Shown: positions 50,593 to 58,668 of the stretch, in pieces
Numbering within the stretch: position 1 is the first letter of the stretch
Layout: every line of letters begins with the position of its first letter
Source: Motilimonas sp. E26
GTDB taxonomy: Bacteria > Pseudomonadota > Gammaproteobacteria > Enterobacterales > CBDFNC01
Assembly: GCF_021278025.1 (NCBI RefSeq)
Contig: NZ_JAIBHJ010000020.1
Location: 1 to 64,000, forward strand
Direction: 5' to 3'
DNA: 64,000 nucleotides
Position numbers and translations under genes: made by a program
Notes under the pieces: generated by a model
The model's input: only the letters and a program-made list of their open reading frames with translations
Databases searched by the model: none
Told to the model about the DNA's origin: nothing

Positions 50593-50860
50593 GCCTTACC
50601 CCCAATCAGGAAAATTCACACCATATCATTTAGTGCACTAGTCATCTATTGACGAATCGTCACAAACTATTATAAGGTTGATGATAACAGTTTACATTTG
50701 ATTTAGATATTACAACTTAATTACTTCGCGTAAAACCAAGGCTAGGTCAATAAACAAAAATAGATTAATAAAAACAACAAATTAAACATAAGCAACACAA
50801 TGGAATATCACTTTCCACTTGATAGTTATTTACAACAAATTAAATATAAAGGCACTTTAT

Positions 50861-52618
50861 ATGTTGAAATCGACCAGCCTAACTCAGCTCTTGAAGGTAA
50901 CATTAGTGCCCTCAGTCGTTGGTATTCTATCAGCCTGTGGCGGTGGGGGTGGCGGCTCAGAACGAGAGCCTGTCACACCCGCTCCAGTCACACCCGCTCC
51001 AGTCACACCAACTGCAGCACCACTGCCCGCTCCATCAGCATTTAATTTTACTGATATCAGTGCCGTACCCGATCAAACAGGTCAATTTCTGCTTAGTTGG
51101 CAAACATCAGAATATGCCGAGCAGTACGATGTTTGCTTAAAACAAGACTCGGTAGATACCTGCCAAGTTGTGATAACCACACCAAAAAATCAAGTGAATC
51201 TAGCAGCTCATCAAACCAAAGCGATAACGACTCCCACCTACTTCATCCGTGCTAGCAATGCTACAGGCCACAGCGATTCAAATGAACTCAACATCGACCT
51301 CGCTCAGCTGATTCAGTCAAGTGTGAAAGTGCAAGCATCCAATGCCGAGCTAAAAGATACTTTTGGCCAGTACGTCAGCCTAAGTAAAGATGGCAATACA
51401 TTAGCTGTTGGCTCACCAATGGAAGATGGTGAAAATGAATCTCTCAATAATAGCGGAGCGGTTTACGTTTACACTCGACAGCCCAATGGCACTTGGCAAC
51501 AACAAGCGTACCTAAAAGCCAGTAATGCCGGAAACTGGGACTGGTTCGGTGCCAGCCTTAGTCTTAGTGATGATGGCAACACCTTGGCGATAGGCGCCAT
51601 TGGCGAAGCTTCAACTAGCGCGGATAAGCCAGAAGAGAATCTCGCGGATGTTGCAGGTGCCGTCTATATTTTTGAGCGAAATAACAACAGCTGGCAACAA
51701 ACCCAATACCTTAAGGCAAGCTCTAACATTGAGTTTAATGATAGCTTTGGTTACCGAGTTGAGCTAAGTGGTGATGGCAACACCCTAGCCATTGGCGCAA
51801 TTGGCGACGATGCCGCCAATGCTACTGAACCAGCTGATAACAGCCTAGAAGACTCGGGCGCGGTATACATATTCCGCCGCCAAGCAGACAATGGGTGGCA
51901 AGTAGCACAATATCTAAAACCTAGCACACTAAGACGTTATGCCAATTTTGGTGCGAGTATTGCGTTAAGTAATAATGGTCAAGTTTTAGCTGTGGGTGCG
52001 CCTTATGACTCTATCCCTGAGCATAGATATACTGGACGGGTGTTTATCTATCATGCCGATAGCAATGATTCTTGGCAGCTTAAAAGTGCATTTGCTTCCG
52101 CTGCACCTGGGCCAAATCAGTCATTTGGTTTAGACCTCGATCTTAATAGTCAAGGCTCAACCTTAGTCATCGGTGCTGATGGCAATTATCAGTGGGCCGA
52201 AAGTGGTGCATATGTCTACGAATACGCTGGAACAAACAATTGGCAGCATAGCCAAACGCTAAAAATAGCGGATCTCAGCACACTGAATAAGTTCGGTAGC
52301 AGTATTAGCTTGAGTGATGATGGTCAGTTTCTCGTTGTTGGCAACAAATCAGACCATTCAGGGCAGATTGAAAACCCAAGCGACACCAGTGCAGAAAATT
52401 CAGGTGCAGCCTATTTGTTTAAGCGGCAAGGTAATGGCTGGGATGCCGGCACATTATTAAAATCAAAAGAAACGCAGGCTTCTGCTTTCTTTGGTAAAAG
52501 CTTAGCACTAAGTGGTGATGGCAGCACTCTCGCTGTAGGCGCAGACGGTACCGAGAAGTATAATGAAGACACAGCCAGTGCTATTGCTGACACAGCGGGT
52601 GCAGTATACGTTTATTAA
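50861..52618 (+). CDS. FG-GAP repeat (integrin-like beta-propeller) lipoprotein
   Basis: A 585-residue lipoprotein. The signal peptide ends in LSACGGGGGG (lipid attached to Cys), then comes a flexible PVTPAPVTPAPVTP linker encoded by a short tandem DNA repeat, a fibronectin-like domain, and about seven FG-GAP-type units of the form FGxxVSLSxDGNTLAVG followed by GAVYVY, matching a beta propeller. Asp/Asn-rich loops could bind calcium. It is exposed on the surface or in the periplasm; adhesion is possible. ATG 50861 with AAAGG before it is chosen because it starts a proper lipoprotein signal; an upstream in-frame start would spoil it. Confidence 0.88.
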   Translation: MLKSTSLTQLLKVTLVPSVVGILSACGGGGGGSEREPVTPAPVTPAPVTPTAAPLPAPSAFNFTDISAVPDQTGQFLLSWQTSEYAEQYDVCLKQDSVDTCQVVITTPKNQVNLAAHQTKAITTPTYFIRASNATGHSDSNELNIDLAQLIQSSVKVQASNAELKDTFGQYVSLSKDGNTLAVGSPMEDGENESLNNSGAVYVYTRQPNGTWQQQAYLKASNAGNWDWFGASLSLSDDGNTLAIGAIGEASTSADKPEENLADVAGAVYIFERNNNSWQQTQYLKASSNIEFNDSFGYRVELSGDGNTLAIGAIGDDAANATEPADNSLEDSGAVYIFRRQADNGWQVAQYLKPSTLRRYANFGASIALSNNGQVLAVGAPYDSIPEHRYTGRVFIYHADSNDSWQLKSAFASAAPGPNQSFGLDLDLNSQGSTLVIGADGNYQWAESGAYVYEYAGTNNWQHSQTLKIADLSTLNKFGSSISLSDDGQFLVVGNKSDHSGQIENPSDTSAENSGAAYLFKRQGNGWDAGTLLKSKETQASAFFGKSLALSGDGSTLAVGADGTEKYNEDTASAIADTAGAVYVY

Positions 52619-53880: not shown

Positions 53881-55575
53881 ATGTCGTCTAATGCACGCAG
53901 TAAAAAAAAGTCATCTAGCACCATTAATGAAGTTATGGAACAGGCGGTTAACACGTCTAAACGCCGTTCGACTAGCGCAAAAACAGTCAACAAAGAACAA
54001 CAGCAAGTGTCCAGCTCCAAGTTTGCTAATATTCAATCAAATACCTTTTATGGCATCATCTTAGATCCAAGCCTGACACCTACCGATAAGAAAAATGCGG
54101 TATCACAAGCACTTACATTTGCTAACAACAAAGACGATGCCAAAGAAAAGCTCGAAGAATTCAACCAGTTCAAAGAGTTTTTACAACACGAACGCAAACG
54201 TATGGCGCAGGAAATTATTGCCCTAACCGACACAGGTGCGTTTTCTGAACTTAAAACCGTATACGACGAGATCAATAACGCCCTGATCTCATTTGAAAGC
54301 AAAATCACCCCATTAACTGACATCGTTGATGCGGTTTACACCCTACGTATGAATGGCGTCACCTTTGATGTATTTAGAGAGATTGCTGAAGATAAAGAAG
54401 CCGAAGCCGAATTGGCAGTGCTGCGCGAGGCGCAAGAGCAAGAGTTAGCAAGTTTAACCAAAACCCTGCAAGAGAAAAAAAATCAAATCGCACTATTGAG
54501 CGAAGATAAATCTTGGTTTGGCTTTGGTAACATCACGCAGGCATCACGTGAGAAAATCGCATTATTGCAAGTTGAAGTGGAAAACCACAATAACGAGTTA
54601 GCCACACTAACCCAAGCCATGGCAACCACTCCAGAGCAACCACAAAAAGAATCTAAGCTAGTTGAATACGCAGAACAAAAAGCCAAGCTGCGTGAACTAT
54701 TAGATATCTCGTCTACCGAACATAAAGACCGCCAAAAGGCGTTAGTAACCGCAGCACAAGACTTTATTCAAACTACAGAAGTACGTGTCGGCACCGTATC
54801 TGAGCACTTTGACATGATGAATGGTCAAATTGATAACCTTAATGAAGCTAACTTTAGTATGCGTGAAATGTACGCCATCATTAACGACGCCACCAAAGAA
54901 GCGGACAGTCAAAATGAGGCTTTACGTGACAGCTTACAGCCAGCCGATGCAGAAGAAGGTGATATTGAACGTATGACCCGAGAGCGTCATAAACGAGACC
55001 TAGAAAATCATATTAAAGCGTTAGGTAGCTCCGCAGTTGACACCACTACAGTGCTGGCAGAATTAACCAGCTCAGGTCATCGCATTAAGTCAATGCAAGA
55101 TGCCAACGATCAACAAATTTCTAAAACTCGTCAACTGCATAGTTCCGGCGTTGCCGGCGTCGCCGACCAGTTAAGCACAGTGTTACAAGCTGTCTCGTCG
55201 GCAGCGCTCGGTGAGTCATCAGAAATGGCCCGTATGTCGCTTGAACGCATGCAGCAAACCACCACAGCATTAGGCCAAAAAGAAGTGATCCGCGTCGCGC
55301 TTGGCACGCAAGAGCAAAATAGTGAGTTAAGCAAGGCCTTGGAAGATCTAGAACAATACGGTCAAGTGATTGAAACAGCGACCAGTATTACTCGTGACGG
55401 CCTATTAGAAACTAAAGACTTATTAAGCCGCTTAGAAAACACCGCAAAAGACGTTCAGGCCAGCGTACAAGAGTCAATTTCAGTAGCCGCTGACGTTACT
55501 TCGGGAAAATATGACGACGAGCAACAAGCCGAGCAACCCCAGAAACAAGCTGAAACTAGCCCGTTCGGTTTTTAA
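53881..55575 (+). CDS. Large coiled-coil cytoplasmic protein of unknown function, operon gene 1
   Basis: A 564-residue protein without signal or membrane helices. It begins with a basic low-complexity tail (SSNARSKKKSSSTINEVMEQ), then is almost all helical, with coiled-coil stretches around 85-110, 180-260 and 280-320, and ends in a Gln-rich acidic tail with SPFGF. The length and arrangement recall TelA-like or structural coiled-coil partners, but no family was recognised. AGGAT precedes the ATG. It is followed after 66 bp by an AAA+ gene and then a membrane protein gene, all rightwards. Confidence 0.75.
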   Translation: MSSNARSKKKSSSTINEVMEQAVNTSKRRSTSAKTVNKEQQQVSSSKFANIQSNTFYGIILDPSLTPTDKKNAVSQALTFANNKDDAKEKLEEFNQFKEFLQHERKRMAQEIIALTDTGAFSELKTVYDEINNALISFESKITPLTDIVDAVYTLRMNGVTFDVFREIAEDKEAEAELAVLREAQEQELASLTKTLQEKKNQIALLSEDKSWFGFGNITQASREKIALLQVEVENHNNELATLTQAMATTPEQPQKESKLVEYAEQKAKLRELLDISSTEHKDRQKALVTAAQDFIQTTEVRVGTVSEHFDMMNGQIDNLNEANFSMREMYAIINDATKEADSQNEALRDSLQPADAEEGDIERMTRERHKRDLENHIKALGSSAVDTTTVLAELTSSGHRIKSMQDANDQQISKTRQLHSSGVAGVADQLSTVLQAVSSAALGESSEMARMSLERMQQTTTALGQKEVIRVALGTQEQNSELSKALEDLEQYGQVIETATSITRDGLLETKDLLSRLENTAKDVQASVQESISVAADVTSGKYDDEQQAEQPQKQAETSPFGF

Positions 55576-55641
55576 GCCTCAATCGCCTAATCAGTAGCTC
55601 TAATCAGGGCTACTTTCTTCCCTATATCCAAGAGGTAACCT

Positions 55642-57882
55642 ATGCCACAGAATAACCATTTAATTCGCGGGCGCGACAAACTAGCTCAACAGCCCGACTT
55701 TCAGCTTGTTGGTCGTGATAAAGAGCTCAAGCAACTGGCAGGTGTACTAATGCGCAAACAAGCCAACAGTGTACTCCTTGTTGGCACCGGTGGAGTGGGT
55801 TGCTCAGCCCTTTGCTTAGGTCTGCAAGCCAGTAAAAACGATAGCGAAGCTTCATTTGATATTATTAATAAACGCATTTATTGGCTAGACACAGATGGCT
55901 TGTTTGCATCTGGTGATCCAAGTGCTATGAATGAGCATTTTCAGAAGCTATTACGTACCCTGAGCCGCTCCAAAGAATCCATCTTGATCATAGAAGACGC
56001 ACGTGACTTTATTGAAGCGGCACGCAACAACGGTTGCACTAACTTTATTAATGCCTTGGTTCGTGAAATTCGTATGAATAAGTTTCAAGTAATTTTTGAA
56101 ACCCGTGATGATGACTTAGAAGTGGTATTAAAATGCCATTCCGACATGCGTGAATATTACACGATGCTCGATATCAAAGAGCCCGCTCATGAATCACTGA
56201 CTGAAATTATCACAGTAACCAGTAAGCGCTTAGAGCAACACCATAAAATCACCATCAGCGAAGACGCGATAGCAACTGCGATTGATTTAACCAACAAATA
56301 CCGCGTTCGTGAAATGAGCTTAAGCCGTGCCCAACCTGAGCGAAGTTTAAATCTACTTGATCGTGCGCTCACTACTTATCGCCAACGAGCCCACGCGGCA
56401 CCAGCTGAATTAACTCAACTGAATCAACAATTAAGCTTAATTGAAGCGGCTATCGCTGGCGATGAAAGCAGTGAATTTTTGCATGTCCCTACTGAACAAC
56501 TATTGAGTAAAAAATCAGAGCTACTACAGTTAATCAGCCAGCAACAAGAGCAATGGCAATCCATTCAACAGCAATTACGAAAATGCTATAAAAACCAAAG
56601 AGATGGTGAAGAAGGCTTAATTGAACTTGAAAATGCCCTGCTCAAACAACAGGAAGTTGAACAAGCCCAAGGTGACACCAAACCTGAACCAGAAACGCTT
56701 GATCAATTTCGTTCATTTTCTGCTTCATTAGCGGCAGGTTTTGAATCTGAAGCTATCAGCAAAATCCGCGCTGAAATTGCGCAAATGGAAGCTTACGTCA
56801 AAGAAAATAAACAAGCATTTGAGCAACTAACTCGTCAAGTTAATGCTAACTTGTGTCTCGATGTTGATAGCGTATTAGCAGAATTTAGCGCTATTTCTGG
56901 TATCGCAACTGACAAGCTCAATCAAGATGAGCGCAGCAAACTGCTGAAAATTCACTCCGTGCTTAACTCACGGGTTTATGGACAAGATCATGCTGTAGAC
57001 CAGCTTGCCGATGCGGTGCGCGTCGCTCGTGTGGGGTTAAAAGATCCAGAAAAGCCACAGGCTTCTTTTATGTTCTTAGGCCCCTCAGGCACAGGTAAAA
57101 CAGAGCTAGCTAAGGCCCTTGCCGCCGCGTTATTTGATGATGAACGCGCGTTGTTACGTTTCGACATGTCGGAATATATGGAAAAACATGGCGTGGCCAA
57201 GCTCATTGGCGCACCACCGGGTTATGAAGGTTACGAAGCTGGCGGTATTTTAACCAATTCAATGCGCAGCAACCCTAGAGTGATTGTATTGTTCGATGAA
57301 ATGGAAAAAGCACATCCAGATGTTTTTAATGTGTTACTGCAAGTGCTTGATGATGGAAGATTAACTGATAACCGAGGGTTAACTGTATCCTTTGGTGAAG
57401 CCATTATTTTAATGACCACCAATATTGGCCAGCCAAACTTCCTCGATGAGAACTTAAGCTTTGATGAGGCCGTGAGCGAAACCATGAAAGAGCTCGATCA
57501 GGTGTATCGCCCCGAATTCCTTAATCGCTTTAATGGCCGTGAAAACATTGTTTGTTTTAACCGCTTAGATTTAGCTGTAGTTGAAAAAATTGCCCGTCGT
57601 GAAATCGATAAGCTTAATCGCCAAATTAAAGCCAGTGGCAAAAATATCAATATTAATATCAGCGACCAAACCTTAGCTGACATTTGTCAGGATATTTACG
57701 TGCCTGCTATTGGTGCTCGTGGCTTACCAGGTTATATCACAACTCGAATCAAACCTGCAGTTGCCAATACCTTACTGCAAACGCCTGATGCTGAAGGTGA
57801 AATGCTGATCAAATACGACATTACAACCAAGCAACTCAATATTTCGGCGCCGACCAAACAAGCGGTTCTTAATCCGGCTTAA
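55642..57882 (+). CDS. ClpB/ClpA-like AAA+ protein with inactive first ATPase site, operon gene 2
   Basis: A 746-residue protein with two AAA+ modules and a coiled-coil segment (about 250-400) between. Module 1 has GTGGVGCSA (residues 48-56), where the Walker lysine is Cys54, and IIEDARD, so it should not hydrolyse ATP. Module 2 has intact GPSGTGKTEL near 480, the pore-loop GYEGYEAGG, the Walker B VIVLFDEMEKAHPD, and RPEFLNRF with the arginine finger. It lacks the Clp N-domain. The design suggests a threading or remodelling machine. It lies between a coiled-coil and a membrane protein gene in one operon. Confidence 0.85.
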   Translation: MPQNNHLIRGRDKLAQQPDFQLVGRDKELKQLAGVLMRKQANSVLLVGTGGVGCSALCLGLQASKNDSEASFDIINKRIYWLDTDGLFASGDPSAMNEHFQKLLRTLSRSKESILIIEDARDFIEAARNNGCTNFINALVREIRMNKFQVIFETRDDDLEVVLKCHSDMREYYTMLDIKEPAHESLTEIITVTSKRLEQHHKITISEDAIATAIDLTNKYRVREMSLSRAQPERSLNLLDRALTTYRQRAHAAPAELTQLNQQLSLIEAAIAGDESSEFLHVPTEQLLSKKSELLQLISQQQEQWQSIQQQLRKCYKNQRDGEEGLIELENALLKQQEVEQAQGDTKPEPETLDQFRSFSASLAAGFESEAISKIRAEIAQMEAYVKENKQAFEQLTRQVNANLCLDVDSVLAEFSAISGIATDKLNQDERSKLLKIHSVLNSRVYGQDHAVDQLADAVRVARVGLKDPEKPQASFMFLGPSGTGKTELAKALAAALFDDERALLRFDMSEYMEKHGVAKLIGAPPGYEGYEAGGILTNSMRSNPRVIVLFDEMEKAHPDVFNVLLQVLDDGRLTDNRGLTVSFGEAIILMTTNIGQPNFLDENLSFDEAVSETMKELDQVYRPEFLNRFNGRENIVCFNRLDLAVVEKIARREIDKLNRQIKASGKNININISDQTLADICQDIYVPAIGARGLPGYITTRIKPAVANTLLQTPDAEGEMLIKYDITTKQLNISAPTKQAVLNPA

Positions 57883-57912
57883 CTTTCTAATAACAAAGCA
57901 GTAGGAAACACC

Positions 57913-58668
57913 ATGAAGCAAAATAATGAGCCCCCCATGGATCGTGATGCTCTGTTACGCCAGGCGCAGCAAGCGTTGGCTGACAGCGCAGCCACTGATG
58001 CTCCTATGGATACTAATCCATCATTACTAGTTAAAGCCATCGCTGCTATTTTTTGGCTACTGGCTAAGATCCGCTTCGTGGTGTTACGCCCTTTTGTTTG
58101 GCTAGGTTATGTATTTAGCGGCCGTAACCCCGTATTTCGATTCCTAAAAAAAGCAGGAGTTTGGCTCGCCTTTGAGCCGGATAAGCAAAAACCTGATGAA
58201 GTTAACTTTTCAGCACGCCGCTTAGGTATTAACGGCTCTTGGCTGAGCGCAGTTTTACTGGTCATCTATTTTTCAATCACTGCCGCTTACTTTTACGGCA
58301 CTCAGTTTGAAGAGCTCGTCTACACCACAGGTAAGCAAGAAATTGAGGCTGGTGAGCAGTATCAATTTACCGGCTGCACCTCATTACCTTGCAGCACGCA
58401 AGCCGACAATGGCAAGTATTACAAAATTGAAGCCAGCCATTTTTTACCTGCCTTGTATTATCCCGAAGAAGACGTGTTTGCTAATATTCCGCAACAAGAT
58501 GGCGCTTGCTTGGCTAAAGGTTACGGCTTTTACTTTCGTAACTTGCGTTCGCTGTATAAATATTTTCAGTGGTATCAAAAAGTTTACGATGTTTCTTGTC
58601 GGCCATATACCGAGGCAGAAAAACAATTAGCCATAGGTACAGGTCAAATAAGTGCAGTAAGCGAATAG
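57913..58668 (+). CDS. Membrane protein with periplasmic cysteine-rich domain, operon gene 3
   Basis: A 251-residue protein. The N-terminal part is cytoplasmic; hydrophobic stretches occur at about 36-58 (SLLVKAIAAIFWLLAKI) and 112-130 (SWLSAVLLVIYFSITAAYFY), the second a clear membrane helix. The C-terminal domain, probably periplasmic, has four cysteines (TGCTSLPCST, DGACLAKG, DVSCRPY) able to form two disulfides. A TAGGA site precedes the ATG and the gap to the AAA+ gene is 30 bp, so it is part of the same unit. No family recognised. Confidence 0.72.
   Translation: MKQNNEPPMDRDALLRQAQQALADSAATDAPMDTNPSLLVKAIAAIFWLLAKIRFVVLRPFVWLGYVFSGRNPVFRFLKKAGVWLAFEPDKQKPDEVNFSARRLGINGSWLSAVLLVIYFSITAAYFYGTQFEELVYTTGKQEIEAGEQYQFTGCTSLPCSTQADNGKYYKIEASHFLPALYYPEEDVFANIPQQDGACLAKGYGFYFRNLRSLYKYFQWYQKVYDVSCRPYTEAEKQLAIGTGQISAVSE

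Follow-up and report, generated by a model that had tools for sequence, protein, structure and literature searches.

Three genes read in the same direction lie in the window, the whole 64,000-nucleotide stretch of Motilimonas sp. E26 DNA that was analysed. They encode a helical protein (CC), a two-module Clp/Hsp100 protein (AAA) and a membrane protein (TM), with the following features:

53881..55575, + strand: CC, an open reading frame (ORF) for a 564-aa helical protein without a named family
55558..55572, + strand: C-terminal tail of CC, SPFGF
55593..55614, + strand: RNA hairpin between CC and AAA (z -2.57)
55642..57882, + strand: AAA, an ORF for a 746-aa two-module Clp/Hsp100 protein without N-domain
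55642..56421, + strand: D1, first ATPase module of AAA, catalytically dead by motif
55801..55803, + strand: Cys54 codon at the position of the D1 Walker A lysine
56422..56856, + strand: variable region between D1 and D2, in the place of the ClpB M-domain
56929..57879, + strand: D2, second ATPase module, intact, with an aromatic pore loop
57913..58668, + strand: TM, an ORF for a 251-aa single-anchor membrane protein without a named family
58237..58293, + strand: predicted transmembrane helix of TM, about residues 109-127
58375..58599, + strand: four cysteine codons of TM (155, 160, 199, 229), after the helix

The genes are separated by 66 bp (CC-AAA) and 30 bp (AAA-TM), and the three tightly spaced ORFs lie exactly where the first-pass annotation had placed them, at 53881, 55642 and 57913. 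The GC content of the trio (0.439) is close to that of its surroundings in the window (0.435), and its composition therefore does not show recent transfer. At 50819-52618 the window also encodes a 599-aa protein that has six FG-GAP repeats and begins like a lipoprotein (LSACGGGGGG).

AAA starts at D1, its match to the ClpB profile spanning positions 175-848, and the absence of a Clp N-domain claimed earlier is thus confirmed. In an alignment with four Clp proteins of the same genome, ClpB and ClpA among them, GTGGVGCS of AAA lies gap-free under GAPGVGKT of ClpB, so that Cys54 had been correctly read as replacing the Walker lysine. Compared with ClpB, D1 has also lost the Walker B DE, including its Glu, the arginine-finger pair and the pore tyrosine, the KYRG of the ClpB pore aligning to GD-PSA. 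Among 33 AAA proteins, many of them near-copies from genus g311 of family f207 and hence not to be counted as independent cases, the Walker A lysine position is occupied by V (15), C (10), A (3), T (2), I (2) or R (1). The proposed comparison with relatives thus found a first module without lysine in every one, and this holds in each separate phage and bacterial lineage; it is the non-lysine state that is conserved (33/33) and not cysteine itself, which is seen in 10 of 33. The second module is complete and has a threading loop, as had been described: GPSGTGKT, a GYEGYE pore loop and a Walker B DE are present in this AAA, and across the family the Walker A Lys, Walker B Asp-Glu, sensor Asn, Arg finger and sensor-2 Arg occur in 33/33, with Tyr (32) or Phe (1) as the pore residue.

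Mean pairwise identity within the family is 52% for D1 and 55% for D2 but 27% for the helical region between them, where ClpB has its DnaK-docking M-domain, and dN/dS in g311 relatives is 0.044 for D1 and 0.037 for D2, indicating similar purifying selection. Pseudogene decay of D1 is ruled out by these values. Since D1 is conserved almost like D2 and is under purifying selection, these comparisons argue that it must have a role other than ATP hydrolysis; it might bind ATP weakly, though the motifs argue against this.

The best NCBIfam profile for AAA is ClpB (E 8.4e-129), yet the score of 431 bits is far below the cut-off of 1232, and ClpV/TssH (360 bits against a cut-off of 885) and ClpA are likewise far under theirs. 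A full-length match is found to phrog_4871 (E 1.9e-177, residues 12-736), and gp492 of the 490-kb Agrobacterium phage Atu_ph07 is 44% identical to AAA and has the same D1 cysteine. In the AAA tree the family is separated from the Clp proteins of the same genome (support 100/100). Thus AAA is the same kind of protein as phrog_4871 and gp492, which are annotated as ClpB or ATP-dependent protease, an annotation that overlooks the dead D1, both partner genes and the absence of a ClpP loop; by tree and alignment, what carries these names in phages is a separate Hsp100 lineage in which the first ATPase site is missing in all known members. AAA resembles ClpB/Hsp104 in its order of D1, intervening helical region and D2, and in the intact D2 with its aromatic pore loop. 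It differs in having no N-domain, a D1 dead in all members, an unconserved intervening region, and fixed CC and TM partners. A standard ClpB was rejected on the missing N-domain, the dead D1, the absent D1 pore tyrosine and the profile score. The type VI secretion ATPase TssH/ClpV was rejected on its score and because sheath or baseplate genes were not seen around the trio on inspection of four bacterial lineages. Two more long Clp-type proteins, with open frames of about 878 and 864 aa, are found on contigs C3 and C35 of G000 (L004, L005); they group with each other in the tree and are candidate type VI secretion ATPases.

The label of ATP-dependent protease implies an unfoldase that feeds ClpP. 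Beyond the annotation itself, this can draw on a ClpP-like protein encoded elsewhere in the Atu_ph07 genome (PMC6102473), but the ClpP-binding motif [LIV]G[FLV] is found after D2 sensor 1 in 0 of 28 AAA proteins and inspection revealed no recurrent protease gene beside the trio, making this reading highly improbable. With D1 dead and both the N-domain and the ClpP loop missing, general disaggregation and ClpP delivery are disfavoured as predicted functions.

The partners of AAA have no usable family match in Pfam, NCBIfam, PADLOC or PHROGs, and a Pfam search at E up to 10 gave nothing useful for either; the first-pass annotation had spoken of no named pathway, and indeed neither CC nor TM is named by the curated families or the defence library. 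The AlphaFold model of CC, of medium confidence, is all-helical with disordered ends, and a fold search returned only generic coiled coils, e.g. SMC and Rad50, with no convincing neighbour and no match hinting at a polymer. TelA of the Ter system is alike in being a helical cytoplasmic protein with a proposed near-membrane role in jumbo phages (PMC7824862), but hhalign finds no relation between the profiles of CC and TelA (probability 0, E 0.89); with no Pfam TelA match and no TelA in the genome, this identity was rejected.

At its C-terminus, after a disordered linker, CC ends in SPFGF, SPFKL, RPFNF or similar. PF occurs in the last 14 residues of 27 of 33 homologues, against 0.3 expected from shuffling of the last 60 residues, and is lacking in 6. 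The tail is retained in f207 genomes that have no TM, and is lost in both CC paralogues that are not immediately followed by an AAA gene, of which this genome and Motilimonas eburnea have one each. Such a correlation, in few cases, suggests that it is AAA that reads the tail. The second, shorter CC (L016:9275-10855 and L017:10180-11799; 44-47% identical, no PF tail) is on a different contig from the trio in this genome, whereas in M. eburnea it lies a short way upstream of it.

The hairpin between CC and AAA has counterparts of unrelated sequence at the same place in other lineages. Nine of ten CC-AAA gaps of at least 37 bp fold better than shuffles (z -1.9 to -5.9), the remaining one (L048) having z -1.3, and the hairpin is absent from members in which the two genes touch or overlap. 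The short AAA-TM gaps (window, M. eburnea, Vibrio and G040) have no folding excess (z -0.5 to 0.9), and longer stretches after AAA fold in Atu_ph07 (z -2.7) and L043 (z -2.0). The element is possibly a partial terminator or an mRNA 3´ end; its T-run is short and it was not listed in a consensus terminator scan. Maintenance of structure without sequence at a fixed place suggests a need for more CC than motor.

Two roles may be considered for CC, and the choice between them is the main one to be made. CC could be an adaptor or scaffold through which other clients reach the D2 motor at the membrane, there to be refolded, extracted or exported. The common gene unit and the CC tail fit this, TM would supply the membrane address, and helical adaptors of Hsp100 proteins are known, with MecA for ClpC and PTEX150 for HSP101 as models. 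Hsp100 adaptors usually dock on the N-domain or M-domain of the motor, however, and AAA has no docking N-domain and a poorly conserved region between D1 and D2; moreover, the excess of CC suggested by the hairpin is more natural for a client or scaffold. An adaptor is possible but on balance unlikely, and CC as client is favoured.

TM consists of a basic, aromatic-rich N-terminal part, one strong hydrophobic helix (from the hydropathy of homologues; residues 101-129 in the model) and a beta-rich domain, which agrees with its earlier description as a membrane protein with four cysteines, all of which follow the helix. Cys199 and Cys229 are present in 20 of 20 TM proteins; Cys155 and Cys160 are both present in 16, both missing in 4 and never found singly. 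Loss as a pair is consistent with a disulfide, and disulfides predict that the domain would lie outside the cytoplasm. TM is modelled with low confidence (mean pLDDT 65), and the OB-fold-like barrels returned for residues 124-235 (Z 6.4-7.8) are within the stated noise range of the tool, for which reason no OB fold is claimed.

The most telling fact about the trio, invisible in the window alone, is its link to jumbo phages. All three genes were recovered from 15 of 17 jumbo-phage records and, among bacteria, from two species of Motilimonas, one Vibrio and two further gammaproteobacterial genomes; in every lineage found, CC homologues adjoin AAA. M. eburnea is a congener of the window's genome, and its CC, AAA and TM are 88, 88 and 65% identical to those of the window. 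A search with CC matched M. eburnea and Vibrio sp. Of7-15, each with the three genes in order; the trio was also found in the gammaproteobacterial lineage G040 and in a 607-kb viral contig. In Atu_ph07, CC is gp493, AAA is gp492 and a TM homologue, gp488, is encoded four genes on (E 1e-9). The 17 phage records, which include Atu_ph07 and come from viral-contig scans with D1 and CC alignments, all have CC and AAA; a full TM is nearby in 15, it is cut by the contig end in L049, and none is found in L051. The gene for a T4-type gp23 capsid protein was detected in 6 of 13 phage records tested, the others being mostly fragments, which suggests that the trio is largely a module of T4-like jumbo phages. 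Searches for CC in plasmids, and for TM alone in phages and viral contigs, gave nothing useful, and three divergent phage CC queries against annotated phages yielded Atu_ph07 alone.

Among bacteria the module is rare and patchy. CC was matched in 2 of 369 genomes of the class, 14 of 395 of the order and, in a phylum-wide draw of 398, in the window's genome only. The co-occurrence check thus upheld the trio as a unit, with CC, AAA and TM together across phages and bacteria, but not as one widely conserved among relatives, 367 of the 369 class genomes being without a CC match. Outside Motilimonas, the order matches are all in family f207, in which CC occurs in 15 of 44 genomes; 14 of these belong to genus g311 (about 35% GC). 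In the g311 genomes that were read (L053-L055, L057-L062), CC and AAA directly follow groEL, between it and the mntP/rlmN region, and in six g311 genomes without them an mntP-like gene comes directly after groEL, leaving a clean empty site. The g311 genomes searched yielded no TM apart from one sub-threshold match full of stops; G534, the sole positive genome of a sister genus, retains TM beside AAA.

The location beside groEL, together with the intact D2 threading motifs, might be taken to indicate a general stress chaperone or disaggregase, brought by phages and with D1 activity lost, that keeps proteins soluble during infection. Such a role in protein solubility has been suggested for Atu_ph07, where gp492 is listed as ClpB (PMC6102473). 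Against it stand the missing N-domain, the lack of a conserved M-domain-like region, the fixed CC and TM partners and the normal ClpB that the Motilimonas genome already has; nor was a convincing sigma-32 site found upstream of CC in a search that gave a perfect one for groES. We consider a general chaperone rather improbable.

Several observations bear on how the trio spreads. DNA similarity of the window to M. eburnea and to the Vibrio is 76-77% over CC and AAA and 80-81% over the 3´ half of TM. It starts 25-35 bp before CC and stops about 40 bp before the end of TM, with dissimilar neighbours, and the two Motilimonas species carry the trio at different places beside different genes. Judged by these alignments, the trio is a unit that moves. 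The AAA tree divides the bacterial members into two groups, and a supported branch (96/97) places that of f207 with the phages; more than one exchange between phages and bacteria is thus likely, in a tree whose long branches leave details unsure and do not settle the direction of exchange. Divergence of the partners is correlated (Mantel r 0.77 for CC-AAA, 0 of 2000 permutations; 0.58 for CC-TM), in favour of the remodelling module preferred below. The accessory position in jumbo phages and the patchy, mobile occurrence in bacteria would also suit a competition or exclusion module, by which a phage alters the host envelope or cytoplasm against rival phages and which bacteria have captured as protection; jumbo phages carry other candidate exclusion genes (PMC7824862). 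This seems improbable, given that the weak PADLOC matches are to the shared D2 only and none are to CC or TM, that defence genes were not noticed in the neighbourhood of the bacterial copies, and that the site-stable g311 copies look like housekeeping genes. A known anti-phage system (PADLOC 2023) was rejected because AAA gave partial matches alone, with the best of them on D2.

Our preferred reading, held tentatively and at somewhat less than even confidence, is a self-contained, D2-driven remodelling module that acts on CC and is common to jumbo phages and some bacteria. AAA would form a two-tier ring of the Hsp100 type in which D1, unable to hydrolyse ATP, may serve as a fixed platform and D2 would thread polypeptide through the pore. 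CC would be dedicated to AAA as its partner and probably its client, with more CC made than motor; the short PF-containing tail on a flexible linker would offer it to AAA, so that pulling by AAA may take apart or reshape CC assemblies. TM, as an inner-membrane anchor with a disulfide-bonded outer domain, would place this work at the membrane in most versions. The combination of one working motor, a fixed helical partner seemingly in excess with its tail, and a membrane anchor is what argues for a dedicated CC remodeller at the membrane; the absence of TM from g311 and L051 counts against it in so far as the membrane step is not universal. The proposal of a dedicated remodelling machine, as opposed to a standard disaggregase, holds as the best reading after three checks aimed at refuting it; for a link to transport, also proposed, we find nothing beyond the membrane partner, which is absent from one bacterial genus.

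More specifically, and possible though doubtful, a half-dead Hsp100 may continually dismantle an abundant helical assembly at the membrane via a terminal tail, by a logic like that of Vps4/ESCRT-III with unrelated parts, in a system native to jumbo phages and traded with bacteria on more than one occasion. The likeness is in working: at a membrane, a threading AAA protein is combined with a helical partner whose short C-terminal motif is carried by a flexible linker. In contrast, AAA here is a Clp protein, and ESCRT-III is not among the Foldseek matches listed for the medium-confidence CC model. The PTEX translocon (HSP101/PTEX150/EXP2) similarly combines an Hsp100 motor with a non-enzymatic and a membrane partner. 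HSP101, however, has both ATPase sites, and TM resembles a single-helix anchor rather than a pore.

We found no description of the module in the main texts of open-licence papers, and it may have been mentioned elsewhere. The main text on Atu_ph07 has no mention of gp493 or gp488 (PMC6102473), and a survey of jumbo phages reports other Clp and AAA+ proteins in them (PMC7824862). Two partners of AAA are nameless in databases, and annotation had treated AAA as one more ClpB. The original observation was correct, and the conserved trio and its phage link make it stronger than could be seen from the window alone. The module offers a natural test of the purpose of a dead D1 ring in a two-tier threader. 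It is small and clonable, and purifying selection maintains it in some bacteria outside infection; what it does to host proteins or membranes is therefore open to direct study. In one of the phage contigs (519 kb; L040:4611-8190), the genes before the trio resemble, by eye, NAD salvage genes (nucleotidyltransferase-like and nicotinamide phosphoribosyltransferase-like).
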